Of a stretch of 22,524 nucleotides of DNA, positions 2,557 to 19,086 are shown in pieces; positions within the stretch are counted from its first letter, which is position 1, and the number at the start of each line of letters is the position of its first letter. Position numbers and translations under genes: made by a program. The DNA is from a virus: positions 1 through 22,524 of the IMG/VR virus record IMGVR_UViG_3300006865_000105. One strand, written 5' to 3'. A model generated the notes under the pieces. The model was not told the DNA's origin. It made no database searches and was given only the letters and a program-made list of their open reading frames with translations.

Positions 2557-3008
2557 TGCGATCCCCACTAGGCCACTCACTCGTCATTACCCAAGACTTC
2601 GGTGTTCATGAAGGGATTTTTGGTCTCAAGAACCACACGGGGGTAGACTTTCGCTCCCCATTAGGAGATAACTGGTTCACCTGCGTTCCGGGGGTTCTGC
2701 ACTTAGGAGGCACAGCCCCCTACCTAACGGGCTACGGAGCCTACTGGAAACTCGACTGGAACCAGGGAGATGGATCGGTTATTACCTTCATCTACGGCCA
2801 CGCCAAGAACCGACAGAAGGGCTTGGATAACCATAACGTCAAAGAAGGCGTGAAGATCGCCCAATCGGGTAATACAGGCTGGTCCACAGGTCCCCACTTA
2901 CACTTTGAAATGCGCCTCTACAAAACAGGCCGCAGGGGATATACTCTCCTCAACCCACGAACACAGTTCTTAGACAAGTATAAGATCGCGTACTCGTACA
3001 AGAAGTGA
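2556..3008 (+). CDS. M23 (LytM-type) peptidoglycan endopeptidase, probable endolysin
   Basis: 150 residues forming a single peptidase M23 domain with no added cell-wall-binding domain. The zinc and catalytic motifs are intact: H27-x-x-x-D31 (NHTGVDF), H82 in the YGHAK segment, and H114-L-H116 in the GPHLHFEM segment, preceded by the typical GNTGWSTG loop. Family members cut the peptide cross-links of peptidoglycan using zinc. There is no signal peptide, consistent with release through the preceding holin-like protein. It overlaps the next gene by four bases (GTGA). The lysis role is inferred from context; a virion-associated peptidase is the alternative. Confidence 0.9.
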   Translation: MRSPLGHSLVITQDFGVHEGIFGLKNHTGVDFRSPLGDNWFTCVPGVLHLGGTAPYLTGYGAYWKLDWNQGDGSVITFIYGHAKNRQKGLDNHNVKEGVKIAQSGNTGWSTGPHLHFEMRLYKTGRRGYTLLNPRTQFLDKYKIAYSYKK

Positions 3009-3865
3009 CATCTAGGCACACCGTTGTAATCACGGGAGGCACAGGGAGTTTTGGAAACGCCCTGACCCGCCTCCTTCTTCACCGGGAAGACATCGAAAGA
3101 GTCCGTATCGTTTCCCGAGATGAATTGAAACAGGTCGAAATGGCCCGTAAGTTTGATGATGACCGGATTCGCTTCTTCATTGGGGACGTGAGAGACCTAA
3201 AAAGAATGGAGGCCGCCTTCTCGGGGGCCGATATTGTGATTCACGCCGCCGCCATGAAACAAGTACCAGCTTGTGAATACAACCCATTTGAGGCGGTCAA
3301 AACCAATATCTTGGGAACCCAGAACGTGATCCAGGCGTGTCTCACGAATGGAGTGGAGAAGGCTTTATTTATCTCTACTGATAAAGCCGTTGACCCGGTG
3401 AACCACTACGGGGCTACGAAGTTAGTCGCTGAAGGGTTATGGCTCAATGCAAACCACCGAGGACCGACTAAGTTCTCCCTCTCACGCTGGGGGAACGTCT
3501 TAGCTTCTCGGTGGTCGGCGATCCCTTTATTAAAGAAACAAGCCAAGAAGGATGTCCTCACTATCACCCATAAGGACATGACTAGATTCTGGTTGACCCT
3601 GAGACAAGCCGTAGAGTTTGCCTGGGGCAAGGTTGAAACAATGGAAGGTGGAGAGGTATTCATCCCCGACCTCAAGAGCGCGAAGGTCGTGGATTTAGCC
3701 AAGGCAATAGCCCCCCACGCTCGGATCAAGTATGTCGGAATCAGGCGGGGGGAGAAACTACACGAAACTTTAGGGCCAAAATACTTTTCCAATGATAAGA
3801 AACGCCTCCTCACACGCAGAGAGGTGAAAAACCTATACCATGAAATACGGAGCACAATCTATTAG
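3005..3865 (+). CDS. pseB: UDP-GlcNAc 4,6-dehydratase (PseB-like, inverting)
   Basis: 286 residues from a GTG start overlapping the lysin stop. It is a short-chain dehydrogenase/reductase of the PseB/FlaA1 group. The NAD(P) loop is T10-G-G-T-G-S-F-G17. Family blocks follow: SRDELKQ (37-43), GDVRD (60-64), AAAMKQVPACEYNPFEAVKTN (81-101), the catalytic STDKA (124-128, D126/K127) and Y135-x-x-x-K139. THKDMTRFW and GIRRGEKLHE come later. PseB removes water from UDP-GlcNAc and inverts C5, the first step of pseudaminic acid synthesis. The block usually written RxGNVxGSRGS reads RWGNVLASRWS, losing two glycines. The protein is somewhat shorter than typical (about 330). It overlaps the aminotransferase gene by 26 bases. 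A dehydratase of another dideoxysugar route cannot be excluded. Confidence 0.85.
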   Translation: MTSRHTVVITGGTGSFGNALTRLLLHREDIERVRIVSRDELKQVEMARKFDDDRIRFFIGDVRDLKRMEAAFSGADIVIHAAAMKQVPACEYNPFEAVKTNILGTQNVIQACLTNGVEKALFISTDKAVDPVNHYGATKLVAEGLWLNANHRGPTKFSLSRWGNVLASRWSAIPLLKKQAKKDVLTITHKDMTRFWLTLRQAVEFAWGKVETMEGGEVFIPDLKSAKVVDLAKAIAPHARIKYVGIRRGEKLHETLGPKYFSNDKKRLLTRREVKNLYHEIRSTIY

Positions 3866-4838
3866 TCTCAAGGATTTAGCGGCGGTCAGACACGTCCTCC
3901 AGTCAGACAATCTTACCCAAGGACCAACCGTCAGAGCCTTTGAGGAAGCCGTGGCTGAAATGGTAGGGGCAAAGTACGCCGTGGCGGTAAACAGCGGCAC
4001 AGCGGCCCTCACCGTGGCATACCAAGCATCTGGACTGACCCACCTGGTAACTACCCTCAATACCTTCGTAGCTACGGCTAATGCAGGGATGTTGGCTGGC
4101 TTAGAGACTATTGAACTCAGAGACATAAGCGTCAACGACGGATGCTGGCTGGCCCCTTATTCAGCTGTTCCCGGGCATCTTTATGTACCCGTAAACTACG
4201 CGGGGAATATCGCGGTGGTGCCGGATGATATAGCCTCTCAAACAATCGAAGATTCCTGTCACTCCATGACCTACCGAGGGAATACTTTAGCCGCCTGTTT
4301 CTCCTTCCACCCGGTCAAGCATATTACCACCGGAGAAGGTGGGATGATTGTCACCAACAACGAGCAGTTCTATAAGGATTGTTTAGACCTCCGCGATCAC
4401 GGCAGACACGATACTTGGGCCGTAGATGTATCGGGGAATTACCGAATGAGCGACATTCAGGCGGCATTAGGACTATCCCAACTGGGGAGCCTCAAGAAGT
4501 TCCTGCAAAAACGTGTACACCTGATGGCCATGTACCACAGTCTCTTGGCTAAATATCCCGTCCATATCACTACCAATAACTCTCAACCCCATATTATGGC
4601 CGTCCTGTGTGAGAACCGGGATGGACTGAAAAGATGGTTAGAGGAGAACGATATTCATACTGCTATTCATTATCCGCCGGTCAATATGCACCCGGTCTAT
4701 CGACAGGCGAGAAAGGAGCGATCTTACGCAGATTACTGGTACGAACACGAACTATCCCTTCCCCTCCACCCGAAACTATTGGATCGGGACGTCAAAAGGG
4801 TTTGCTCACTCATCAAGGAGTTCTACGACCATGCCTAA
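3840..4838 (+). CDS. pseC: PLP-dependent UDP-sugar aminotransferase (PseC-like, DegT/DnrJ/EryC1/StrS)
   Basis: 332 residues. The N-terminus carries the PseC-like pattern YGAQSI...VLQSDNLTQGPTV (3-31), then the phosphate-binding NSGTAAL (51-57), the PLP-ring aspartate D138 in IEDSCHS, and the Schiff-base lysine K160 in CFSFHPVKHITTGEGG. The family moves an amino group from glutamate onto the 4-keto sugar made by PseB. At 332 residues it is about 50 shorter than usual PseC proteins, mostly through shortened loops between 75 and 135, yet all core motifs survive. It overlaps the dehydratase by 26 bases and the synthase gene by eight, indicating one transcript. Confidence 0.87.
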   Translation: MKYGAQSISLKDLAAVRHVLQSDNLTQGPTVRAFEEAVAEMVGAKYAVAVNSGTAALTVAYQASGLTHLVTTLNTFVATANAGMLAGLETIELRDISVNDGCWLAPYSAVPGHLYVPVNYAGNIAVVPDDIASQTIEDSCHSMTYRGNTLAACFSFHPVKHITTGEGGMIVTNNEQFYKDCLDLRDHGRHDTWAVDVSGNYRMSDIQAALGLSQLGSLKKFLQKRVHLMAMYHSLLAKYPVHITTNNSQPHIMAVLCENRDGLKRWLEENDIHTAIHYPPVNMHPVYRQARKERSYADYWYEHELSLPLHPKLLDRDVKRVCSLIKEFYDHA

Positions 4839-5529
4839 TACAACCTTTATCGTGGCTGAGATGGGCGGGAACCACGACGGAGACCTGTCCCGCGCCATTG
4901 AACTTATCCATATCGCTAAGGATGCAGGAGCCGATGCAGTCAAGTTCCAGCTCATCCCCCCGTTCAAAGCAGACTGGATTGACAAACTCATCACAGTTTG
5001 TGGACTCGCCAACATCGAGTTTATGGCCACCCCGTTCAATGAAGCAGGAATCATGGCCCTTAGGGGGAAAGTGAAGCACTGGAAGATCGCCGCGACCGAA
5101 GCTGCTGATGACACCTTCGTTTCCTCCGTCCTTAGAGCCGCCGGGAAAGACCCAGTGTTCATCTCCGATGGAGCCGTGGACAATCCAATGAAGTTCCTCC
5201 GAGAAGGAGCTAATGTAATACCGATGGCGTGTGTCGTAAAATACCCAGCAGACGAGGAAGACTACGCCCTGGGCTATCAGGGTAGATGGGGACTCTCGGA
5301 CCACACCACCCACCTCCTGCTCCCGATGATCGCTGTCGCCAGGGGAGCCGTCGCCGTAGAAAAGCACTTCACCGACGATCCTAAACGGGAAGGACCGGAC
5401 CATTCCTTCGCTCTCGACCCAGAAAAGCTGACCGAAATGGTCAAACTGATTCGGATGACGGAGAAGATTCTCACTAACCAGAAACAAACCATCACCGAAT
5501 ACGTCGGGAGGAAACTACAATGGCCATGA
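4831..5529 (+). CDS. pseI: Minimal nonulosonic acid synthase (PseI/NeuB family, no SAF domain)
   Basis: 232 residues of a NeuB-type TIM barrel. The opening FIVAEMGGNHDGDLSRA (6-22) and AGADAVKFQ (32-40) are diagnostic, followed by EFMATPFNEAG (63-73), GLSDHT with H158, and AVEKHFT with H179, the two metal-binding histidines of the family. These enzymes condense a hexose derivative with phosphoenolpyruvate to make a nine-carbon acid. Usual length is 330-350 residues. Here the insert between VKFQ and the TPF segment is cut to about 23 residues, and the whole C-terminal SAF (antifreeze-like) domain, which helps close the partner active site, is absent. GC content is higher than in the two preceding genes. 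Substrate (pseudaminic, legionaminic or sialic precursor) is inferred from PseB/PseC. Confidence 0.82.
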   Translation: MPNTTFIVAEMGGNHDGDLSRAIELIHIAKDAGADAVKFQLIPPFKADWIDKLITVCGLANIEFMATPFNEAGIMALRGKVKHWKIAATEAADDTFVSSVLRAAGKDPVFISDGAVDNPMKFLREGANVIPMACVVKYPADEEDYALGYQGRWGLSDHTTHLLLPMIAVARGAVAVEKHFTDDPKREGPDHSFALDPEKLTEMVKLIRMTEKILTNQKQTITEYVGRKLQWP

Positions 5530-5921
5530 GAACGGTCACCAGAGAGGATTACCTGTTCCTCTACGATCTCCTCAAGGAGAAAGAACCGGAGCAGAACATC
5601 AGCCACACGCACCTTCCCACCTACGAAGAACACGTCGCCTTCAACGAGGCCATTCCCTACCAGGAGGACTACATCATCCTCACGGAAAATGGGGAATCGG
5701 CGGGTAGAATCTACCTCACCAGGCAGATGGAGGTCGGCATCCACATCGCCAAACCTTTCCGGGGCAGTGGTATCGCCCAGAAAGCCCTGACCGAACTAAT
5801 CAGTAAGCACCCTGGCGAGGCTATCTACGCCAACATCGCGCCCCTCAACATCCGCTCCAAAGTGTTCTTCAAGAGCATGGGCTTCCGTCTCATTCAGGAG
5901 ACCTATAAACTGGGGGCCTAG
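5520..5921 (+). CDS. GNAT N-acetyltransferase (PseH-like by context)
   Basis: 133 residues of the GNAT fold. Motif A is EVGIHIAKPFRGSGIAQKALTEL (about 79-101), with the acetyl-CoA loop R-G-S-G-I-A. Motif B is NIRSKVFFKSMGFRLIQETY near the C-terminus. In pseudaminic acid clusters such an enzyme (PseH) acetylates the 4-amino group created by PseC. The start at 5520 follows GGGAGGA; an ATG two codons later is also possible. It overlaps the synthase by ten bases. The family is clear; the substrate is inferred only from the neighbours. Confidence 0.8.
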   Translation: MAMRTVTREDYLFLYDLLKEKEPEQNISHTHLPTYEEHVAFNEAIPYQEDYIILTENGESAGRIYLTRQMEVGIHIAKPFRGSGIAQKALTELISKHPGEAIYANIAPLNIRSKVFFKSMGFRLIQETYKLGA

Positions 5922-5927
5922 CCCACC

Positions 5928-6154
5928 CCCACCTATCTATACCCATGACCATCACCTGGACCCCGAAACGATCCAAGGTCTCTGACCTAAAGCCCTGGGA
6001 ACACAACCCTCGGACTATCCAGAAACTGTAAAATTGCACTGATCTAAGTGTATTATGCAGGGTATGCAACGCTATGGACTATCTGAAAAGAAAAAGCCCG
6101 AAGAATATCGGTCGTTTTACTGTTATATGGCAAGGGTGATTATAGATAGGTGGG
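5928..6154. repeat. 14-bp perfect inverted repeat bracketing gene remnants
   Basis: CCCACCTATCTATA at 5928-5941 is exactly complementary to TATAGATAGGTGGG at 6141-6154. The arms enclose 199 bases holding the ParB-like and most of the methyltransferase fragments. The left arm lies just after the acetyltransferase stop, the right arm inside the methyltransferase remnant. It may mark the ends of a rearranged or inserted segment, or form a long-range stem. No transposase or target duplication was found. Confidence 0.6.
5945..6031 (+). pseudogene. N-terminal remnant of a ParB/DNA-methyltransferase protein
   Basis: 28 codons beginning MTITWTPKRSKVSDLKPWEHNPRTIQK, then TAA. The segment VSDLKPWEHNPRTI is the characteristic opening of ParB-like nuclease domains, which in many phages are fused to an adenine/cytosine DNA methyltransferase. 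The frame stops before the ParB catalytic GxHR motif, so no working domain remains. Together with the C-terminal fragment at 6055-6195 it looks like the two ends of one gene whose middle has been deleted. Confidence 0.6.
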
Positions 6155-6195
6155 AGAAACTAACCGGCCAAAAGGCCAGCAAAATAGATGGCTAG
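6055..6195 (+). pseudogene. C-terminal remnant of a DNA methyltransferase
   Basis: 46 codons; an alternative start lies at 6064. The stretch MARVIIDRWEKLTGQKASKID resembles the extreme C-terminus of phage DNA modification methyltransferases, where a W-E-x-x-T-G-x-K/Q-A pattern closes the domain. None of the catalytic (D/N/S-PP-Y/W) or SAM-binding motifs is present. The TAG stop overlaps the start of the terminase small-subunit gene by eight bases, as a genuine intact upstream gene would. It is best read as the surviving tail of the gene whose head is at 5945. Confidence 0.55.
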
Positions 6196-6583
6196 ACCAA
6201 CGATCATGACTCCCGAGACTGTGGCTAAACTTGAGGAGGCTTTCAAGATAGGCGCAACCGATACGGAGGCTTGTAATTATGCCAACATCGCAAGGGAAAC
6301 ATACTATCGACACCTAAGGGACGACTCAAAGTTTAGTGACAGAATCAGCTCGGCCAAAGAATGGCCTATCTTAGCCATGAAAAAGACCATTGTTCAGGCT
6401 GCGGTTGGAGGGGATAAACAAGCAGCCCAGTGGTATTTGGAACGCAAACGGAAGGATGAGTTCGCCCCTAGGCAGGAGTTATCAGGCCCCGAAGGTCTCC
6501 CCCTTGGATATATTCACTCCGGGGACATCAAACAACTACCAGAATCAGAACAACCTAAACAACTCGGTTCAGCACATGAGTGA
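6188..6583 (+). CDS. Terminase small subunit
   Basis: 131 residues. An N-terminal helix-turn-helix (about 10-45, GATDTEACNYANIARETYYRHLRDD) is followed by a helical middle (KEWPILAMKKTIVQAAVGGDKQAAQWYLERK), and the tail RKDEFAPRQELSGPEGLPL is typical of phage small terminases. The protein recognises phage DNA and recruits the large subunit for packaging. It is separated from the large subunit (9717) by 3.1 kb of sugar and small genes, where the two are normally adjacent. The start has no good Shine-Dalgarno and is probably coupled to the upstream remnant frame, which it overlaps. Confidence 0.85.
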   Translation: MARPTIMTPETVAKLEEAFKIGATDTEACNYANIARETYYRHLRDDSKFSDRISSAKEWPILAMKKTIVQAAVGGDKQAAQWYLERKRKDEFAPRQELSGPEGLPLGYIHSGDIKQLPESEQPKQLGSAHE

Positions 6584-6845
6584 TTGGCTGGATCAGATGA
6601 ATATATTAGGTGTGACGGGTGAATATCACAAAGACCTCTGTCATAACGTAGACAATGGTAAACTATGCCTCTCCCCCGCCCACCCTACCGGATACACCCA
6701 ATACTACCCCCAGTATTGTTGCGGCAAGGGACATAAGTATCTCAAGGCCGGGAGCGTACCTTGCGACGGTTGCCACCTCATCAAACCACACAACTTCGAA
6801 GCATCTCGGAAAACTAAGCAACTCACCGAAGGGAAAAGCGAATGA
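6576..6845 (+). CDS. Cys-rich small protein, possible zinc binding
   Basis: 89 residues, taking the ATG at 6576 that overlaps the terminase small-subunit stop. The open frame reaches further upstream but there only shadows that gene. Six cysteines (22, 31, 48, 49, 63, 66) and several histidines are present. The segment CCGKGHKYLKAGSVPCDGC (48-66) looks like a zinc ribbon or knuckle. The stop overlaps the methylase start (ATGA). I do not recognise the family. Its position between terminase and sugar-modifying genes gives no firm role. Confidence 0.7.
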   Translation: MSDWLDQMNILGVTGEYHKDLCHNVDNGKLCLSPAHPTGYTQYYPQYCCGKGHKYLKAGSVPCDGCHLIKPHNFEASRKTKQLTEGKSE

Positions 6846-7393
6846 CCCACCAACTTGATAGATGGAAGGGCGGATTCGGGAATGATTACATCGAAAGAAA
6901 CAGATACGACTGGGAGAAACGCCTAGATGCCTTCACCGATATAATCCCCGATAGTGTCACTTCAATCCTAGAAGTTGGTTCTAACATAGGGAACAACGTC
7001 AATACACTGTCTGAGCTGGGATTTTGTACCATTGGGGCTGAACCTAACCCGGTCGCTGTCCGAGAGGCACTCAAGCAAGACAGACCAACGGTTCAGGCTG
7101 ATGCCTCAAAACTCCCCTTCCCTGATAACTCCTTCGATTTAGTATTCACCTGTGGGGTCCTGATGCACATCCCTCAGTACCAACAGGCGATGGATGAAAT
7201 ATGGAGAGTAACCAAAGGTTATGCCCTAGCCATTGAATACATGGGTGAGGATCAGATCATTCCCTATCATGGATTTGAGGATATGCTATGGAAACGCCCC
7301 GCCTATAACTACCCTGGAGTGGAAGTAAAATCTGGTCAATTAGGGCGGGAGTTTGATTTCTGCTTCTACCAACTCTTTAGAAAGGATGCGTAA
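6842..7393 (+). CDS. Pseudaminic acid biosynthesis-associated SAM methylase
   Basis: 183 residues of a class I SAM-dependent methyltransferase. Residues 7-20 (RWKGGFGNDYIERN) match the opening characteristic of the pseudaminic-acid-associated methylase family. Motif I is ILEVGSNIGNN (42-52), the acidic strand-2 end is GAEPN, and ASKLPFPDNSFDLVFTCGVLMHI gives motifs II-III. Length is a little below the usual 200. The substrate of this family is not well established; it travels with Pse gene clusters and is thought to methylate the sugar or a linked group. It opens the second half of the sugar cluster. Confidence 0.8.
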   Translation: MTHQLDRWKGGFGNDYIERNRYDWEKRLDAFTDIIPDSVTSILEVGSNIGNNVNTLSELGFCTIGAEPNPVAVREALKQDRPTVQADASKLPFPDNSFDLVFTCGVLMHIPQYQQAMDEIWRVTKGYALAIEYMGEDQIIPYHGFEDMLWKRPAYNYPGVEVKSGQLGREFDFCFYQLFRKDA

Positions 7394-7395
7394 GG

Positions 7396-8037
7396 ATGGC
7401 CCCTCCCAAAAAACCAGACCGGCTCAGTAAAATGGTGCAAGACCTGGTTCGAGGGGACGATTCAGAAACAGGAGTGGTCAAAGGATCGTCCGGTACCACC
7501 ACAATCATCATCCAAGCTCGATTAGGCTCCAGTAGATTACCCAGAAAGACCCTCAAAGCATTTAGGGGGCAAACGGTCCTGTGGCACGTTATGAAAAGGT
7601 GTGATCTAACAGGCTTTCCGGTAGTAGTAGCAATCCCTAACGATGAACCTGAGTTAGCGATATGGTTAGAGGCTCACAATGCACAGTACTTCATGGGCGA
7701 CCCCAAAGATTTAGCCCGGAGATACCTGCACGCTGCTCGGGAGTTCCAGGCTAATCCGATAGTACGCATCACCGCCGATTGCCCCCTCATAAATACTGAG
7801 ATAATCAAACTTACCATTAGACTCTTTGAGCTTCAGGGGAATGTTGGATACCTAGGCTTCCACGCCCTCTCTGGACTCAATGTGGAGATATTCGACTATG
7901 ACACCCTAGAGAAAGCATCTAACAACGGCCCCGATGAACACTGCACCACATGGATGCGGAAACAACCCTGGGCCAAAAGTTTCCCCAGTTTAGAACTAAA
8001 TACTCAAGAAGATTACGAAAGGTTACTATCACTATGA
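7396..8037 (+). CDS. SpsF-type cytidylyltransferase (CMP-nonulosonate activation)
   Basis: 213 residues of the SpsF family (GT-A-like nucleotidyltransferase). The nucleotide-binding motif is IIIQARLGSSRLPRKTL (37-53). GDPKDLARRYLHAA and IVRITADCPLI carry the conserved Asp residues for metal and NTP. In spore-coat and flagellin glycan clusters SpsF-like proteins occupy the PseF/NeuA place and transfer CMP from CTP to the nine-carbon acid. The first 35 residues form an unusual polar extension ahead of the fold. At 213 residues it lacks part of the C-terminal region of full-length SpsF (about 240). The stop overlaps the next start by ATGA. Specificity is inferred. Confidence 0.8.
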   Translation: MAPPKKPDRLSKMVQDLVRGDDSETGVVKGSSGTTTIIIQARLGSSRLPRKTLKAFRGQTVLWHVMKRCDLTGFPVVVAIPNDEPELAIWLEAHNAQYFMGDPKDLARRYLHAAREFQANPIVRITADCPLINTEIIKLTIRLFELQGNVGYLGFHALSGLNVEIFDYDTLEKASNNGPDEHCTTWMRKQPWAKSFPSLELNTQEDYERLLSL

Positions 8038-9035
8038 GATGTCAACAATGCGCGTTCCCCCTCCGAGCCAGACCTGGATCGTTAGAAAAGGGAGACACCT
8101 GTCAGGCGTGTATGAACTACAACGCCTCTAAATCATTCAATTGGTCTGAAAGAGAGGCCAAACTCAAAGGCGAAACCGAACGGATGAAGGGCCTCAAGCA
8201 ACCCTATGACTGCGTGGTAGCTGTTTCAGGTGGTAAGGATTCCACCGTTATCGTCTCTAAACTGGTGGAGAAGTACGGCCTCAAACCCTTACTGGTAACA
8301 GTCACCGATGAGTTCACCCACACCAAAGCCGGGAGTCATAACCACGAGAACATCGCCCACCGCTTCAACCTTGATCATCTAACGTGGCGATGTGAACCAG
8401 AAACCTTTAGAAAAGAAACCCTCAAGGACTTCGAGGAGAGCCTACATCCCCTGAAATGGATCGAGGAGAAGATATACTCCGTGCCGATCAGTATTGCAAA
8501 GAGTATGGGCATCAAGGATGTATTCTTCGGTGAGAACAGTGCCTTCCAATATGGGACATCAGATAGACTGGAATACACCAGCCCCCTCTCAACTGAAGAC
8601 GTTACGGTTCACTACTTCTTTGCCTATTACCCCTATTCTGAGCTAGGAAACCGGGCTGAGGCACACAAATATGGCTTCATTGACTTAGATGACACAGGTG
8701 AGTGGCTACGGCAGGGGCATATTGAGAACTACACCCAGCAGGATTCAGTAGCCTATGTAGTCCAACTGTGGACCAAGTTCGTGAAGTTTGGCTTCCAAAG
8801 AGTCTCGGATATAGCTTGCCGATACGTCCGGGCCGGGGAACTGACCCGTGAACAGGCTCTTTCGTACATCTTAGAGAGGGATTGGCAGTGCGATCCACAC
8901 GCTAAGCGGGACTTCTGTAACACTATTGGTATCACAGAGGAACATTTTGACGAGGTAGTTTCCCGCCACGCCAACCGTGAACTGGTAGAGCAAGATGCTA
9001 ACGGCCAGTGGAAGCTCAAAGAGGCACTTGCGTAA
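8034..9035 (+). CDS. pseA: N-acetyl sugar amidotransferase (PseA/WbpG-like)
   Basis: 333 residues from the ATG overlapping the cytidylyltransferase stop; the frame runs 28 codons further upstream inside that gene. An N-terminal four-Cys zinc site (C3, C6, C23, C26) is followed by the ATP-pyrophosphatase P-loop AVSGGKDST with S65-G-G-K-D69-S70. The family uses ammonia from a glutaminase to turn an acetamido into an acetamidino group, as PseA does for CMP-Pse5Ac7Am and WbpG for related sugars. No glutaminase (HisH-like) or channel partner (HisF-like) gene is visible in the window, so host proteins or unseen genes would be needed. It ends the sugar block. Confidence 0.85.
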   Translation: MRCQQCAFPLRARPGSLEKGDTCQACMNYNASKSFNWSEREAKLKGETERMKGLKQPYDCVVAVSGGKDSTVIVSKLVEKYGLKPLLVTVTDEFTHTKAGSHNHENIAHRFNLDHLTWRCEPETFRKETLKDFEESLHPLKWIEEKIYSVPISIAKSMGIKDVFFGENSAFQYGTSDRLEYTSPLSTEDVTVHYFFAYYPYSELGNRAEAHKYGFIDLDDTGEWLRQGHIENYTQQDSVAYVVQLWTKFVKFGFQRVSDIACRYVRAGELTREQALSYILERDWQCDPHAKRDFCNTIGITEEHFDEVVSRHANRELVEQDANGQWKLKEALA

Positions 9036-13478: not shown

Positions 13479-14171
13479 ATGGAATCACAAACCCCAGAAT
13501 CGGAAGGTACGGCAGTACCGACCCCGGACAATGGAATGTCAGGCCAGGATTCGGCCCCGACGGTCGAAACTAGGCAGACCCCACCCGAATTAGCGCTGAT
13601 CGAGGAAGTCCTCGGACGAAAGTTCGAGAGCCCCGAACAGGCAAAAGAAACACTCCGCAACCTCAACAGTCTCGTAGGAGATCAGACGACTTCCAAGCAA
13701 CGCAAAGCCTTGGAAAAACTTGCATCGCAAGCTGGCCTCTCCACCGATGAACTCTTAGAGGTGATTGAAACGCAGCCAATGAACATCCCACAAGGAACGG
13801 AGGAGACTCCGGTTCGTGGCGCACCAGTACGGAGCCTCCCAGATGACACCACCAAGCGTCTCGTACGCATTGAAATGGATCAACTGGTCAAGGACATTCC
13901 CGAAGCCTCAATCGTGCGTGACCAACTCTTTGCCGAAGCCCTAACGACAGGCAAACCAGCAGTCGAACTGTGGACGTCTAAGTACGGACCCCTGGTAGAC
14001 GCTGGCAAGAAAATCGGAGCCAAGAAGTTACAAGCAACACTCGAAGGACAACCGACAAGGGCAACTTCGACGGCTTCGGAAAGCTCGGACACTCAGGTAG
14101 ACTTCTCCAAACTCTCCTCACAGGAGATGGAAAAGTATCTGAACTTCGCCAATCCTAGCCCTCGGCTATAA
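13479..14171 (+). CDS. Scaffold-like protein
   Basis: 230 residues, acidic and low in aromatic residues. A disordered N-terminus rich in Pro, Thr, Ser and Glu (1-40) is followed by a helical middle (ELALIEEVLGRKFESPEQAKETLRNLNSL; QRKALEKLASQAGLSTDELLEVIET) and a Thr/Ser-rich stretch before the C-terminal SQEMEKYLNFANPS. Composition and position between portal and capsid match phage scaffolding proteins, which guide shell assembly and then leave. No maturation protease was seen. Without a sequence match the call rests on context. Confidence 0.7.
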   Translation: MESQTPESEGTAVPTPDNGMSGQDSAPTVETRQTPPELALIEEVLGRKFESPEQAKETLRNLNSLVGDQTTSKQRKALEKLASQAGLSTDELLEVIETQPMNIPQGTEETPVRGAPVRSLPDDTTKRLVRIEMDQLVKDIPEASIVRDQLFAEALTTGKPAVELWTSKYGPLVDAGKKIGAKKLQATLEGQPTRATSTASESSDTQVDFSKLSSQEMEKYLNFANPSPRL

Positions 14172-14209: not shown

Positions 14210-15169
14210 ATGGCAATTACAACTGGCGGTCTTACACAAACAATGGCCACTTACTACTCTAAGGTTTTCTTAGAGAAAGCGCGGCTGTTGATTCGTCACG
14301 ATGCCTTCGCCCAAAAGCGAGGCGTTCCGGCGAACCAAGGTAAGGTCGTCAACTTCACCCGTCACGTCGCTCCTGCGGTCGCTACAACCGGCCTTACGGA
14401 GTCTGTGACCCCAAGCGCGGTCAACTCGACTGCCGCTACGGTCGCAGTGACGTTGGTTGAGTACGGTGCCTACAGCCAAATCTCCAAGTTCTACGAAAAG
14501 ACGTCCATCGACGTCGGACTCAAAGAACAGGTAGAGGCTCTTGGTATCAACATGGGCGAATCCATCGACACGATTATCCGCAACGTCCTCCGCGACGGAG
14601 CGGGTCTCGCCATCTACGCTTCGGCGTCGGCGGGTGCGACCTCATCGGGATCAGTCTTGGTGGCTCATGTACTCACCGCGCCTGACGTTCGCCGATCAGT
14701 TCGCGCTCTCAAGAAAACGAAAGCGATTCCGTTCCAAGGTACACAGGGAAACCCGGTCTTCGGGGGTCTCATCTGCCCGGAATCTGCCTACGACCTCTTG
14801 GGTGACTCGACCTGGCAAGCGACGCAACAGTATGTCAATCCTGATCCAATGAAGCGAGGCATCCTCGGGACATTCTTCGGGGTCGAGTTCGTGGAAACGA
14901 ACAACGCATACGTTTCGGTTCCGGCAACCTCAGGTTCCGTGGTTTACACGACCTGGGTCTTCGGGAAAGAAGCCTACGGTGTGGTGTCAATTGATTCTGA
15001 GGATGTTACATCGCCGGGTGCGGCTAGCCTAATCATCAAGGACTCCGGTCCTAACGACACGGGCAACCCGCTTTCGCTGTGGTCAACAGTAGGTTGGTAC
15101 GCCCCGTTCAACGCGGCGGTACTCAACTCCGACTGGATCGTTCACATCTACGCTGGGGCAACTGTCTAA
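14210..15169 (+). CDS. Major capsid protein (N4-gp56 family)
   Basis: 319 residues. The pattern matches the N4-gp56 capsid group: an early helix (LLIRHDAFAQKRGVPANQGKVVNFTRH, 26-52), TGLTESVTPS, the VEYGAYSQISKFYEKTSID block (about 83-101) and a long helix (GINMGESIDTIIRNVLRDG). The C-terminal half is beta-rich (FFGVEFVETNNAYV; FGKEAYGVVSIDSE). This HK97-fold protein builds the icosahedral head; N4-type capsids are usually longer (about 350-400). It has one of the few good ribosome binding sites in the late region and is followed by a structured RNA element and a co-chaperonin-like gene. Confidence 0.88.
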   Translation: MAITTGGLTQTMATYYSKVFLEKARLLIRHDAFAQKRGVPANQGKVVNFTRHVAPAVATTGLTESVTPSAVNSTAATVAVTLVEYGAYSQISKFYEKTSIDVGLKEQVEALGINMGESIDTIIRNVLRDGAGLAIYASASAGATSSGSVLVAHVLTAPDVRRSVRALKKTKAIPFQGTQGNPVFGGLICPESAYDLLGDSTWQATQQYVNPDPMKRGILGTFFGVEFVETNNAYVSVPATSGSVVYTTWVFGKEAYGVVSIDSEDVTSPGAASLIIKDSGPNDTGNPLSLWSTVGWYAPFNAAVLNSDWIVHIYAGATV

Positions 15170-15178
15170 ACAGACGAC

Positions 15179-15240
15179 TCTCAGTTTTGTGGGGGACATG
15201 GCTCGCGCTCTGTCCCTCACAAAGAGGCGAGCAACTGAGA
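15179..15240 (+). ncRNA. Closed structured RNA element with possible pseudoknot after the capsid gene
   Basis: An 8-bp outer stem (15179-15186 with 15233-15240) closes the element. Inside, 15187-15198 pairs along all 12 positions with 15211-15222 (one G-U). The 12-base loop contains GCTCGC (15201-15206), exactly complementary to GCGAGC (15227-15232) located between the inner and outer right arms, allowing a 6-bp pseudoknot. It is followed by AAATT, not a T-run. It could protect the 3' end of capsid mRNA, attenuate transcription or act as a regulatory RNA. Confidence 0.55.
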
Positions 15241-15269: not shown

Positions 15270-15602
15270 ATGATCATTCCGCTAAACCAGAACGTACTTA
15301 TTGAACGCGACCAAGAATCGTCGGCGTTTGTACAGCGTAAATCAGGTATCATCACCCCAACCGGGCAGGTAGAAAACGAAGGGTTAGTAAACGGGACGGT
15401 TCTCTGGGCTCCGAAGGACCAGAACCTCCTCATTGACCACACCCGAAACATCAACGAGGTCGCAATCAAAACTGGAGACCGTGTTTGGTACTCCAAGTAT
15501 TCAGTTGGAATAGTGGCTGATGACCGCGAGGGACACAGTGGAGAGTTCCTCGACCTTGTTCCCTTAGAAGACATCCGCGCTATCGTAGACATCAAAGAAT
15601 GA
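15270..15602 (+). CDS. GroES-like co-chaperonin
   Basis: 110 residues. IIPLNQNVLIERDQ (2-15) matches the opening of Cpn10 proteins. KSGIITPTG (24-32) sits where the mobile loop hydrophobic tripeptide (IVL in E. coli GroES) binds GroEL. IKTGDRVWYSKYS (about 66-78) matches the GDxVxxxKY block, and LVPLEDIRAIVDI matches the C-terminal strand. Length resembles T4 gp31 (111), the phage GroES substitute needed to fold its capsid protein. It lies directly downstream of the capsid gene. No GroEL gene is present, so it would work with host GroEL. Identity is judged by pattern; a structural test would settle it. Confidence 0.77.
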   Translation: MIIPLNQNVLIERDQESSAFVQRKSGIITPTGQVENEGLVNGTVLWAPKDQNLLIDHTRNINEVAIKTGDRVWYSKYSVGIVADDREGHSGEFLDLVPLEDIRAIVDIKE

Positions 15603-15931
15603 CCACATCGTCTCTCAACGCTAGGCTCAAGAGAATCGATCCACATCTCCGGGTCCGGCGCAGAACAGGGTGGGTCGTATCACGCGGTGAGGGGTTCGCG
15701 ATCAACGCCATCTACCACGGCTGTCGTTACCTAAACATCGCATTTCTTTCGGGGGATATAAACCTTGATACGCGCCCCATTCTTTTTCGGTTTGAGAGTC
15801 TGCCAGGGATGCGTGAACCTCGTAAATATGTCCACTCACGCCAGCGTCGCGGTCGGAAGGCAATCATCGCCCTCCTCAAAGCCAACGGACCGGCGAAACA
15901 CCGCTGGGCGAAACAACTCCTGACTATATGA
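15599..15931 (+). CDS. Basic hypothetical protein
   Basis: 110 residues with many Arg and Lys, notably near the start (LKRIDPHLRVRRRTGW) and after residue 75 (REPRKYVHSRQRRGRKAIIALLKANG). There is a beta-like middle (YLNIAFLSGDINLDTRPILFRF). It overlaps the co-chaperonin stop and the next start by ATGA junctions, so it is a real member of the operon. No family recognised. Confidence 0.68.
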   Translation: MTTSSLNARLKRIDPHLRVRRRTGWVVSRGEGFAINAIYHGCRYLNIAFLSGDINLDTRPILFRFESLPGMREPRKYVHSRQRRGRKAIIALLKANGPAKHRWAKQLLTI

Positions 15932-16914
15932 AAAGGGCCGTTCTCATCAACTTCAACGATGTCATCACCCCCCTGTACCAGACGTTTGAGTCGGTGCCGT
16001 TGACGGATATTGTGGAGAAGGACAAGAAACCAGACTGCCTCGTTACGTGGACAGACTTCACGCCTGACCTGAAGATGATTTGCGCCCACGCTCTCCAGCA
16101 GGGGGTGCTTACTTTTGTGGTGCAACACGGGCGACGAGCTATGCGGGACTACTGGATGGACATGGCCCAACCCACCTCCCTGGCTACATTTGTCTGGGGA
16201 GACTTAGATTACCGTGACGCGATTCAGGGCAACTGGCACCCTAGTCAGGTGTTTCGTGTTGGGGCTCCGTGGTTCGCCTATCGTCCACAGCGCAAAGAGG
16301 AGAAGGGGATGGTCATTTATGATGTTCCTCACTGGCTCAACGACCCGAAAGAAAGTCAGAAAGCATGGAAGGAACTGAATAGAATCAAAGGTATTACCCC
16401 TGTCGCAAAGCTGATTCAACCCTCCATGCAGAAGAGGGAAAACTACGAGGGGATGCAGTGCGAGACTATTCGGAATGAACCCGGCCACATCCAAGCCACC
16501 TACGAGATACTATCCAAAGCCTCGGCTGTGGTGTGTATGATGGACGGCACCTTAGAACTCATGGCCCACTCCCTGGGGGTTCCTGTTATCCACATTGCTG
16601 GCTTCAAACAGGACCATTTAGAAGGCACCTGGCAGGGGGTCGAGGACACCTTCTCGGATGCCTCCATGATTGCCACCGAGTTAGGCAAGATAGAGGAAGC
16701 AGTTACGAAAGCTATTGAGGAACCCTTATGCACCCGTGAGGAGGCCCTCAAGAAGCTCCACAACGAGGCTGGTGATCCAGAGAAGGACACCCCAGTACAA
16801 AGCATGACTACTATCATCGGAGAACTCGTTGATAGATACCATGCCACAGGTCACGTTCCCGTTACCTACTTCGATAAATCAGCCTATGAAGAAGCTCCTC
16901 GCCTTTCGGAATGA
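15928..16914 (+). CDS. GT-B-fold protein, glycosyltransferase or sugar hydrolase/epimerase-like
   Basis: 328 residues. The N-terminal half has alternating strands and helices with VVQHGRRAMRDYW near residue 67-79. The C-terminal half holds ATYEILSKASAVVCMMDGTLELMAHSLGVPVIHIAG, the pattern of GT-B enzymes in which a D/G-G-T-x-E-L loop binds the nucleotide sugar. A similar loop occurs in UDP-GlcNAc 2-epimerases and in the UDP-sugar hydrolase PseG, but the PseG N-terminal GxGHxxR motif is not seen. It begins a run of three such genes, overlapping the next by 29 bases. A glycosyltransferase role is the default. Confidence 0.6.
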   Translation: MKRAVLINFNDVITPLYQTFESVPLTDIVEKDKKPDCLVTWTDFTPDLKMICAHALQQGVLTFVVQHGRRAMRDYWMDMAQPTSLATFVWGDLDYRDAIQGNWHPSQVFRVGAPWFAYRPQRKEEKGMVIYDVPHWLNDPKESQKAWKELNRIKGITPVAKLIQPSMQKRENYEGMQCETIRNEPGHIQATYEILSKASAVVCMMDGTLELMAHSLGVPVIHIAGFKQDHLEGTWQGVEDTFSDASMIATELGKIEEAVTKAIEEPLCTREEALKKLHNEAGDPEKDTPVQSMTTIIGELVDRYHATGHVPVTYFDKSAYEEAPRLSE

Positions 16915-17989
16915 TTGGGCCGGACGCGGTGAATTGGGGCAAGACCTGATTGGTGGTCCCAGCTACTACCGCATCACCAAGCCCGTTCAATTCCTACGCC
17001 GTAAGTACAACGTCTTTGAGTTTGGAGACTTGGTGGCGTGTCAGGCTAACTTAGCCAGGGTCGGGAAGAATTGGGAGATAGACGAGATCATTCCAAACCT
17101 GATTAGAGATTCAGATATTGTTTTGATGAAGAACGTCTCCCACCCCGGAGGCTTAGGTATGTTTGCGGGGGCAGCCGAGTATTACAATAAGCCCCTCATT
17201 TTAGATATGGATGATGACTACCTATCCGTTGACCCTGAACACCCGTGGGGAGAATACTTTGCATCCAACACCGTCCAGCAGTTGACCCACAATGAGCTAT
17301 TCAAAGCATCAACGGCGATGATTGTCTCCACTGAGCCTTTGGTAGATGTCTACAAACCCTATAACCAGAATATCCACGTCATCCATAACTACAACGATGT
17401 GGAGGACTGGCAATTTGAACGCCGGAAGCATAAATCTAAAATAGTCATCGGCTGGGCCGGTTCCTCGATGCACAAACATGACTTAGGAGAGTTTCGCCCC
17501 GTGATGGATATATTATGGGAGAAGTATGGGGATAAGATTCTTTTTGCCTTCTGCGGGGCGTGGACTGATGACCACCTCAAAGGGTTCCCCCGTAAAGCCT
17601 ATCGCACCTTCTCGGGGACGAAGGATATGCGTGACTACCCAGCAGCCCTCGCGGGTTGGGGGTTTGATATTGGTGTGGCCCCGATCGTGAAGTCTGCTTT
17701 CAATGATGGGAAGGGACACGGCAAGTGGATGGAGTACTCGATGTATAAAACTCCAACGGTGGCCTCTAACTTCGGTCCATATAAGAGAACGATGGAGGAT
17801 GGTGTGACCGGCCTCTTGGCGGAGACAACTGACGAGTGGGTTGATAAAATCTCCCGACTCGTTGATGATGCGGCACTTCGCCAACAGATCGGTCAGACCG
17901 CCTACGACCATGTGAAAGCTAACTGGCAGTGGGCCGACCACTACCAAGAGTGGGAAAAGGTCTTCAGCCAGTACCAGACATTCCGATGA
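16886..17989 (+). CDS. GT4-like glycosyltransferase, copy 1
   Basis: 367 residues, starting at the ATG that opens MKKLLAFRND; an in-frame ATG at 16829 lies deeper in the previous gene. GT-B architecture. The N-terminal domain has GGPSYYRITKP (about 23-33) and LILDMDDDYLS. The C-terminal domain has VIGWAGSSMHKHDL and the donor-binding block KWMEYSMYKTPTVASNFGPYKRTMEDGVTGLLAE with E283. The last is typical of family 4 glycosyltransferases that use UDP-, GDP- or CMP-type donors. It overlaps the related second copy by four bases (ATGA). Acceptor and donor are unknown; linkage with the Pse cluster suggests a glycan of the same system. Confidence 0.8.
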   Translation: MKKLLAFRNDWAGRGELGQDLIGGPSYYRITKPVQFLRRKYNVFEFGDLVACQANLARVGKNWEIDEIIPNLIRDSDIVLMKNVSHPGGLGMFAGAAEYYNKPLILDMDDDYLSVDPEHPWGEYFASNTVQQLTHNELFKASTAMIVSTEPLVDVYKPYNQNIHVIHNYNDVEDWQFERRKHKSKIVIGWAGSSMHKHDLGEFRPVMDILWEKYGDKILFAFCGAWTDDHLKGFPRKAYRTFSGTKDMRDYPAALAGWGFDIGVAPIVKSAFNDGKGHGKWMEYSMYKTPTVASNFGPYKRTMEDGVTGLLAETTDEWVDKISRLVDDAALRQQIGQTAYDHVKANWQWADHYQEWEKVFSQYQTFR

Positions 17990-19086
17990 AGACGGTCCTC
18001 GCCCTCAACAACCAATTTCCGACGGAGGAGAATAAGAAGTATGGTCTAGTGTCGGGAGTGTCCTACTATCGTCAGGTGATGCCGGGGAGGTTTCTCTCCC
18101 CCGATTATCACTTCGATCACTTGGGGCATAAATTAGTAGACCTCCCAGCAAATACAGCCGAGACTGAAGTAGCGAAGCTTGTGAAGGGCCATGATATTGT
18201 ATTTACTAAACACCTGGATAACCCTTCCGGTATCTATATGCTCCTCGGGGCGTGTGATTACTACAACCGCCCACTGGTGGTGGATTTTGATGATGACGTC
18301 TTTGCCTCCGATGGGAAAGAACACACTCGGTATGTTTATCCGAAAGGAAGTGATGCCGAATACTACGTCAAAACCCTCATCAAAGAAGCTACCGCTATCA
18401 CGGTCTCGACAGAGCCACTCCTTGAGGTATATGGTGTCTACAACCCAAATGTCTTTCTGTGTCCGAACGGGGTTGACCTAAAAGACTGGGAAAACATCAA
18501 GAGAAAAAAACACGAACGACTCACCATCGGTTGGCCAGCGTCTACTGGACACATTGTAGACCACGGGCTGATTGAGCCGGTGATGAAGGCGATCGTCGCG
18601 GGGAACCCGGACGTAGTGTTTGCCGTGCTTGGACATTACACCCCAGAGATGCTGTCCTTCCTACCTCGGAAGAACTGGGAAATCAAACCAGCTATCCCCT
18701 GGTGGGAGGGACACCCGCACGACGAGCGAACCTACCCTAAAATCCTTGCTGACCTAGGATCGGATATAGGTCTTGCCCCAATTTCTGACTCCCGATACAA
18801 CGCCGCCAGGTCACTGGCCAAGTGGTTTGAGTACACCATGACCGGCACTCCCGTTGTAGCGTCCTCCTACGGCCCCTACACGGCCCTACGGCACGAGGAA
18901 GATGCGTTACTGGCGAAAGATGAGGATGCGTGGATTTCTAACATTCTACGGCTAATAAACGACCCACATGAACGAGACCGAATCAACGCTTCAGCCCGCG
19001 CCCGGATCGAGCGTGAGTACACCGCCGAGTCCTTCACTCCCGATTGGCGCAAGGTATTCTCATCCTTTACCGGATTCCACAAGTAA
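17986..19086 (+). CDS. GT4-like glycosyltransferase, copy 2
   Basis: 366 residues, starting at the ATG overlapping the stop of copy 1. It is clearly a relative of copy 1: SGVSYYRQVMP corresponds to GGPSYYRITKP, LVVDFDDDVFAS to LILDMDDDYLS, VSTEPLLEVYGVYN to VSTEPLVDVYKPYN, and TIGWPASTGHIVDHG to VIGWAGSSMHKHDL. The donor block KWFEYTMTGTPVVASSYGPYTALRHEEDALLA (E282) lies at the same position. Length is almost identical. The pair probably arose by tandem duplication and now may add successive sugars. No membrane anchor or signal peptide, so action is cytoplasmic. Confidence 0.8.
   Translation: MKTVLALNNQFPTEENKKYGLVSGVSYYRQVMPGRFLSPDYHFDHLGHKLVDLPANTAETEVAKLVKGHDIVFTKHLDNPSGIYMLLGACDYYNRPLVVDFDDDVFASDGKEHTRYVYPKGSDAEYYVKTLIKEATAITVSTEPLLEVYGVYNPNVFLCPNGVDLKDWENIKRKKHERLTIGWPASTGHIVDHGLIEPVMKAIVAGNPDVVFAVLGHYTPEMLSFLPRKNWEIKPAIPWWEGHPHDERTYPKILADLGSDIGLAPISDSRYNAARSLAKWFEYTMTGTPVVASSYGPYTALRHEEDALLAKDEDAWISNILRLINDPHERDRINASARARIEREYTAESFTPDWRKVFSSFTGFHK

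Follow-up and report, generated by a model that had tools for sequence, protein, structure and literature searches.

GroES is the lid of GroEL, the bacterial protein-folding chamber, and phage co-chaperonins encoded in head modules are already known. In pelagiphages of the HTVC023P type GroES belongs to the core genes (PMC9599517), and Roseobacter phage (Roseophage) CRP-901 likewise encodes a co-chaperonin GroES (PMC10149686, OQ401623). At least 434 IMG/VR contigs encode a GroES of the CRP-901 type, in which the cpn10 gene of a small phage lies inside the head module, separated from the capsid gene by a few others. In phage T4, gp31 is experimentally essential for capsid folding; it is needed because gp23, at ~56 kDa, exceeds the GroEL-GroES cage; in gp31 the mobile loop is longer and the roof loop is absent (PMC6318259). 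Phage GroEL/GroES pairs have also been found, for example in Flavobacterium phage immuto and in IMG/VR contig L021, where GroEL directly follows cpn10; the known pairs belong to large phages (e.g. 160 kb) or stand beside replication genes (L021).

Here we describe a co-chaperonin gene, cpn10, at positions 15270-15602 of an IMG/VR virus record, linear and 22,524 bases long, from an uncultivated small phage; the whole record is referred to as the window (Table 1). Because the record is linear and possibly incomplete, the absence of a gene from it means little. The gene follows that of an N4-gp56-family major capsid protein (MCP), and we know of no earlier co-chaperonin case in phages with this capsid family, to which a divergent, well-supported co-chaperonin is now added. 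We consider it probable that cpn10 is a phage co-chaperonin of GroEL, made late as part of the head module and serving structural proteins, the adjacent MCP first among them.

Table 1. Positions of the features discussed, in the window unless a relative is named
Feature	Position	Strand	Remarks
PseB-like	3005-3865
PseC-like	3840-4838
NeuB/PseI-like	4831-5529		by eye
Acetyltransferase-like	5520-5921		by eye
Small terminase gene	6188-6583		inside sugar-nucleotide cluster
Cytidylyltransferase-like	7396-8037		by eye
WbuX-like amidotransferase	7950-9035
230-aa acidic protein 5' of MCP	13479..14171	+	pI 4.75; between portal-like gene and MCP
N4-gp56-family MCP	14210..15169	+	319 aa, 33.7 kDa; proposed main client
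MCP 3'-UTR three-helix, pseudoknot-like RNA element	15179..15240	+	topology kept in L002, L004, L005
Helix S0	15179-15185/15234-15240
Helix S1	15186-15198/15211-15223
Helix S2	15201-15206/15227-15232
RNA element in relatives	L002 5912-5978; L004 5909-5966; L005 6951-7010
cpn10 (GroES-like co-chaperonin)	15270..15602	+	110 aa, 12.3 kDa; PF00166, phrog_3188, predicted fold, purifying selection
Mobile-loop tip GIITPTGQ	15345..15368	+	residues 26-33; alignments, low pLDDT in model
110-aa basic protein	15599..15931	+	pI 11.75; ATGA overlap with cpn10

A divergent member of the Cpn10 family

The intact ORF of 110 codons, running from ATG to TGA, matches the Pfam Cpn10 family (PF00166) over residues 2-83 with 29.8 bits and an E value of 6e-7 (gathering cut-off 21.1) and PHROG 3188, 'co-chaperonin GroES', at 2e-7; searches of Pfam and PHROG returned no competing family at E<=1. 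The gene is also present in four further IMG/VR contigs (L002, L003, L004 and L005, of which L002 and L003 are near-identical, and identical over this gene), with 67-75% amino acid identity. All five members match Cpn10 at E<=0.1 and no other Pfam family, for example at 29.4 bits in L002 and 21.2 bits in L004 (gathering score 21.1), and the PHROG GroES assignment is common to every one. Compared profile against profile with a set of Cpn10s from viruses and bacteria that was independent of it and left it out, the family aligned along 96 columns (probability 90, E 1.4e-6). Similarly, among 4286 ORFs from 123 loci the next best match to the family profile was the CRP-901-type GroES. The NCBIfam models for GroES subfamilies and equivalogs did not reach their curated cut-offs (the best, NF001531, scored 24.5 bits against 96), and by its sequence cpn10 falls within the Cpn10 superfamily and outside the bacterial GroES equivalogs. 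Close relatives were found neither in annotated phages by tblastn nor in genome contigs, where a host or prophage was sought, and a second scan of genome contigs yielded just two outside Cpn10s. Within the family, codons diverge at their third positions and are conserved at the first two; pN is ~0.19-0.24 against a pS of 0.77-0.96, a strong purifying selection about equal to that on the capsid gene. This ratio, together with the conservation of the gene, indicates that cpn10 is a real, selected gene rather than a chance ORF.

The predicted fold agrees with this assignment. AlphaFold2 produced no usable fold from the five family sequences alone (pLDDT 37); with a 51-sequence alignment that included other viral Cpn10s and two from cellular genomes it produced a model with pLDDT 73 and pTM 0.67, in which the mobile loop alone scored low (<50), as expected for a loop that is mobile. 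In a Foldseek search of the PDB with this model, ranks 1-19 were all Cpn10 folds, and with VIA-align ranks 1-15 were all Cpn10 (Z 7.6-10.1), T4 gp31 scoring 8.5 (2cgt) and 8.0 (1g31); the first unrelated fold was the GroES-like domain of quinone oxidoreductases (Z 6.1). Matches in BFVD were viral GroES proteins. Since the alignment behind the model contained Cpn10s, the fold is confirmed rather than proven by it, and the independent evidence from sequence consists of the Pfam and PHROG matches and the profile-profile comparison.

The first-pass annotation had called the protein GroES-like, and Pfam, PHROG, the profile-profile comparison and the predicted fold uphold this. It had also raised the prospects of a fold unlike that of GroES and of a better match to another small beta-barrel family; the model, built as it was on an alignment with other Cpn10s, resembles GroES, and no other family matches better by sequence or by fold. 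That the ORF encodes a different small beta-barrel is thus already largely refuted and has next to no probability. The divergent sequence would suit it, as would a single-sequence PDB search in which the GroES match was weak (E 0.15) and a PDB search with the family-only profile that found nothing beyond chance matches, but the Pfam score above the curated cut-off, PHROG, the profile-profile match and the fold comparison all point to Cpn10 alone. The ORF encodes a full-length, divergent Cpn10/GroES.

The three landmarks that had been named earlier are all found, namely an N-terminal MIIPLNQNVLIERD, the mobile-loop-like KSGIITPTG and the GDRVWYSKYS block, along with one that had been overlooked, the GroES-like C-terminal strand EDIRAIVD. 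The loop tip reads G-I-[IV]-T-P in all five members and G-I-V-[LI]-P in most other Cpn10s; of the hydrophobic I-V-[LI] tripeptide with which GroES binds GroEL the first two positions are retained, and the third is an invariant Thr (T29). As read from the sequence, this Thr-bearing tip could possibly reflect a retuned affinity for GroEL. Two unusual blocks, TPxGQVENEG and APKDQNLLID, are strongly conserved in the family, and the alignment shows a candidate roof-like segment, APKDQNLLIDHTRNINEV, whose length is close to that in GroES. Bacterial GroES/Cpn10 proteins (Hydrogenophilus, Thermus, M. tuberculosis) are alike in full-length alignment and fold, with 22-28% identity; the differences are the Thr at the third loop residue of the window family and an insertion of ~4-5 residues before the C-terminal strand. 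CRP-901-type GroES is 30-34% identical and carries a 24-residue N-terminal extension. T4 gp31, also a phage co-chaperonin with the Cpn10 fold and functionally linked to a capsid protein, is only 11% identical in structural alignment, and its missing roof loop contrasts with the normal-length roof-like segment aligned in the window protein.

Linkage to the capsid gene and a GroEL neighbour

The upstream gene had been taken for an N4-gp56-like capsid gene, and indeed its product matches TIGR04387 with 154.4 bits (cut-off 60) and the major head protein family phrog_1357 at 2e-46. The spacer between MCP and cpn10 is 100 bases long in the window and of similar length in L002 and L004. In all five contigs cpn10 lies 3' of the capsid gene; in L005 one 230-aa gene, with no assigned family, stands between them. 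A search with the capsid protein recovered the same contigs as the search with cpn10, and the two genes are therefore always found together within this group. The order differs from that in CRP-901, in which cpn10 precedes the head gene with three genes between, whereas the window cpn10 follows MCP.

In L005, GroEL itself is encoded next to the lid. The first 154 aa of a GroEL occupy positions 8040-8501, the ORF being ended by the contig edge, and the stop codon of cpn10 overlaps the GroEL start by four bases (ATGA). The fragment matches PF00118 at 66 bits and GroEL models down to 1e-30, as a group I chaperonin, and contains the ATP-site motif VGDGTTTATLL. Even the nearest annotated phage proteins share less than 45% identity with it, and the one in contig L021 reaches 50%. 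The gene order is that of the known phage pairs, but here the pair sits in the head module of a small phage, and identity to the GroELs of those pairs is only 35-50%. A small N4-gp56 phage with both lid and GroEL is the least expected part of our findings, and the best argument for a lid that works together with GroEL is the GroEL gene adjoining cpn10. No GroEL was found in the window or in the L002, L003 and L004 records, all of them linear and possibly incomplete. The place of the L005 GroEL is taken in these four by a basic 110-aa protein whose gene overlaps cpn10 similarly tightly. This protein is kept in L002 and L004 at 41-52% identity and is missing after the L005 cpn10; Pfam gave no match to it at E<=1, and its PHROG matches were all insignificant.

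By analogy with its family, cpn10 would assemble as a ring of seven subunits, attach through its mobile loops to the apical domains of GroEL, itself a ring, and so shut the folding chamber over a client. The partner would most likely be host GroEL for the window phage and probably the adjacent phage GroEL for L005. Late synthesis with the head module would most likely raise or retune chaperonin capacity during the burst of structural proteins, the N4-gp56 capsid protein being presumably first among the clients. From the head-module position, head proteins are the likeliest clients, and it is only gene position that points to a dedication to capsid folding. Adjacency as such does not name the client, for the CRP-901-type cpn10 also sits in a head module, with a capsid protein of another family (phrog_371, not N4-gp56).

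How far the T4 precedent applies can be judged from the capsid protein. The first-pass annotation had proposed the same logic as for gp31, and the linkage of GroES and capsid genes is kept in five of five contigs; the size rationale fails, because an MCP of 33.7 kDa would fit the cage, unlike gp23. The explanation given for T4, a capsid protein that exceeds the cage, thus cannot be the general reason for phage lids. In addition, cpn10 was not detected in 12 further phage records whose capsid protein is related, comprising four complete genomes (Pascal, API480, Dennebes and StenR_269) and eight contigs that are possibly incomplete, from which it follows that the capsid family as such needs no phage lid. 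Both observations would suit a general co-chaperonin that strengthens host GroEL, or redirects it, in the service of many late proteins or of stressed hosts, with the gene position reflecting late expression only. The placement of cpn10 away from the capsid gene elsewhere would suit it too, for example ahead of the terminase in Xanthomonas phage PBR31 and, in Vibrio phage D93, within a region of early type. We regard such a general role as rather unlikely, given that cpn10 stays in the head module after MCP in every contig of the group and that CRP-901 has the same habit.

A role in the head module, which we prefer, could also take a narrower form. Tentatively, and with the balance somewhat against it, this lineage of small N4-gp56-capsid phages may carry in its head module a chaperonin cassette dedicated to its own capsid protein, mostly with the lid only and in at least one member, L005, with a complete GroES-GroEL pair, shaped by stepwise gain or loss. 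Lid-only members would then rely on the GroEL of the host, to which their loop would be retuned. Sister phages that have nearly the same capsid protein and carry either the lid only or lid plus GroEL offer a direct test of the benefit of each.

The place after MCP also invites the thought that a structural part, for example for capsid decoration or head completion, has been made from the Cpn10 fold, with loss of the GroEL function. Other phages of the N4-gp56 capsid family have small unassigned genes at that place, and the Thr where the loop would have its third hydrophobic residue and the strong conservation of the two unusual blocks would fit such a reuse. However, the small post-MCP genes of Pascal, API480 and Dennebes have no Cpn10 match, the mobile loop GI[IV] and the C-terminal EDIRAI strand are retained, and the GroEL gene after the L005 cpn10 would be left unexplained; we consider this origin improbable.

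An RNA element after the capsid gene and other neighbours

The spacer downstream of the MCP stop codon contains a three-helix, pseudoknot-like RNA element whose topology recurs in four phages. The outer stem S0 has 7-8 bp, S1 10-13 bp and S2 6-8 bp; S1 and S2 cross, and the 3' strand of S2 lies between S1 and S0. Among 2000 dinucleotide shuffles of the spacer for each of the four phages, between 0 and 7 contained any such arrangement and none reached the real score, and nowhere else in the window, on either strand, does a place score as high as the element. The L002 element shares essentially no sequence with the other three and forms the same helices, which indicates that the pairs have been kept by compensatory change. 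In L005 the element follows MCP while cpn10 lies one gene further on, and it therefore belongs to the end of the MCP transcript. Because only 1-3 nt link S1 and S2, full simultaneous pairing of both is doubtful, and the two helices may lie next to each other or form in turn. An Rfam search gave no family match for the element. It would most likely protect the mRNA or switch between MCP and cpn10. Two other roles were set aside: programmed -1 frameshifting or readthrough, as inspection of the MCP end by eye showed no slippery heptamer and the peptides that an extension would add lack conservation, and an intrinsic terminator, as no T-run follows the last helix.

Upstream of MCP, the acidic 230-aa protein had no significant Pfam or PHROG match; by its position it is a probable scaffold, and in Streptomyces phage Dennebes and StenR_269 annotated scaffolding proteins are encoded at the corresponding position. 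In L004, in the region of ~4400-5010, the capsid gene is broken near codon 16, and an ORF at 4406-4903 with a LAGLIDADG-like stretch, WLAGIIDGEGSIY, lies just 5' of the interrupted gene. The interruption is likely an intron or a homing-endonuclease insert; a comparison of the region with Rfam introns gave none at gathering score.

Between cpn10 and the tail adaptor, three large consecutive genes fill positions 15928-19086 of the window, in an order kept in L002 and L004. Two of them are glycosyltransferase-like, and the one at 16829-17989 has weak group 4 glycosyltransferase matches. Elsewhere in the window, at 3005-9035, a sugar-nucleotide cluster is read as a phage nonulosonic-acid pathway.
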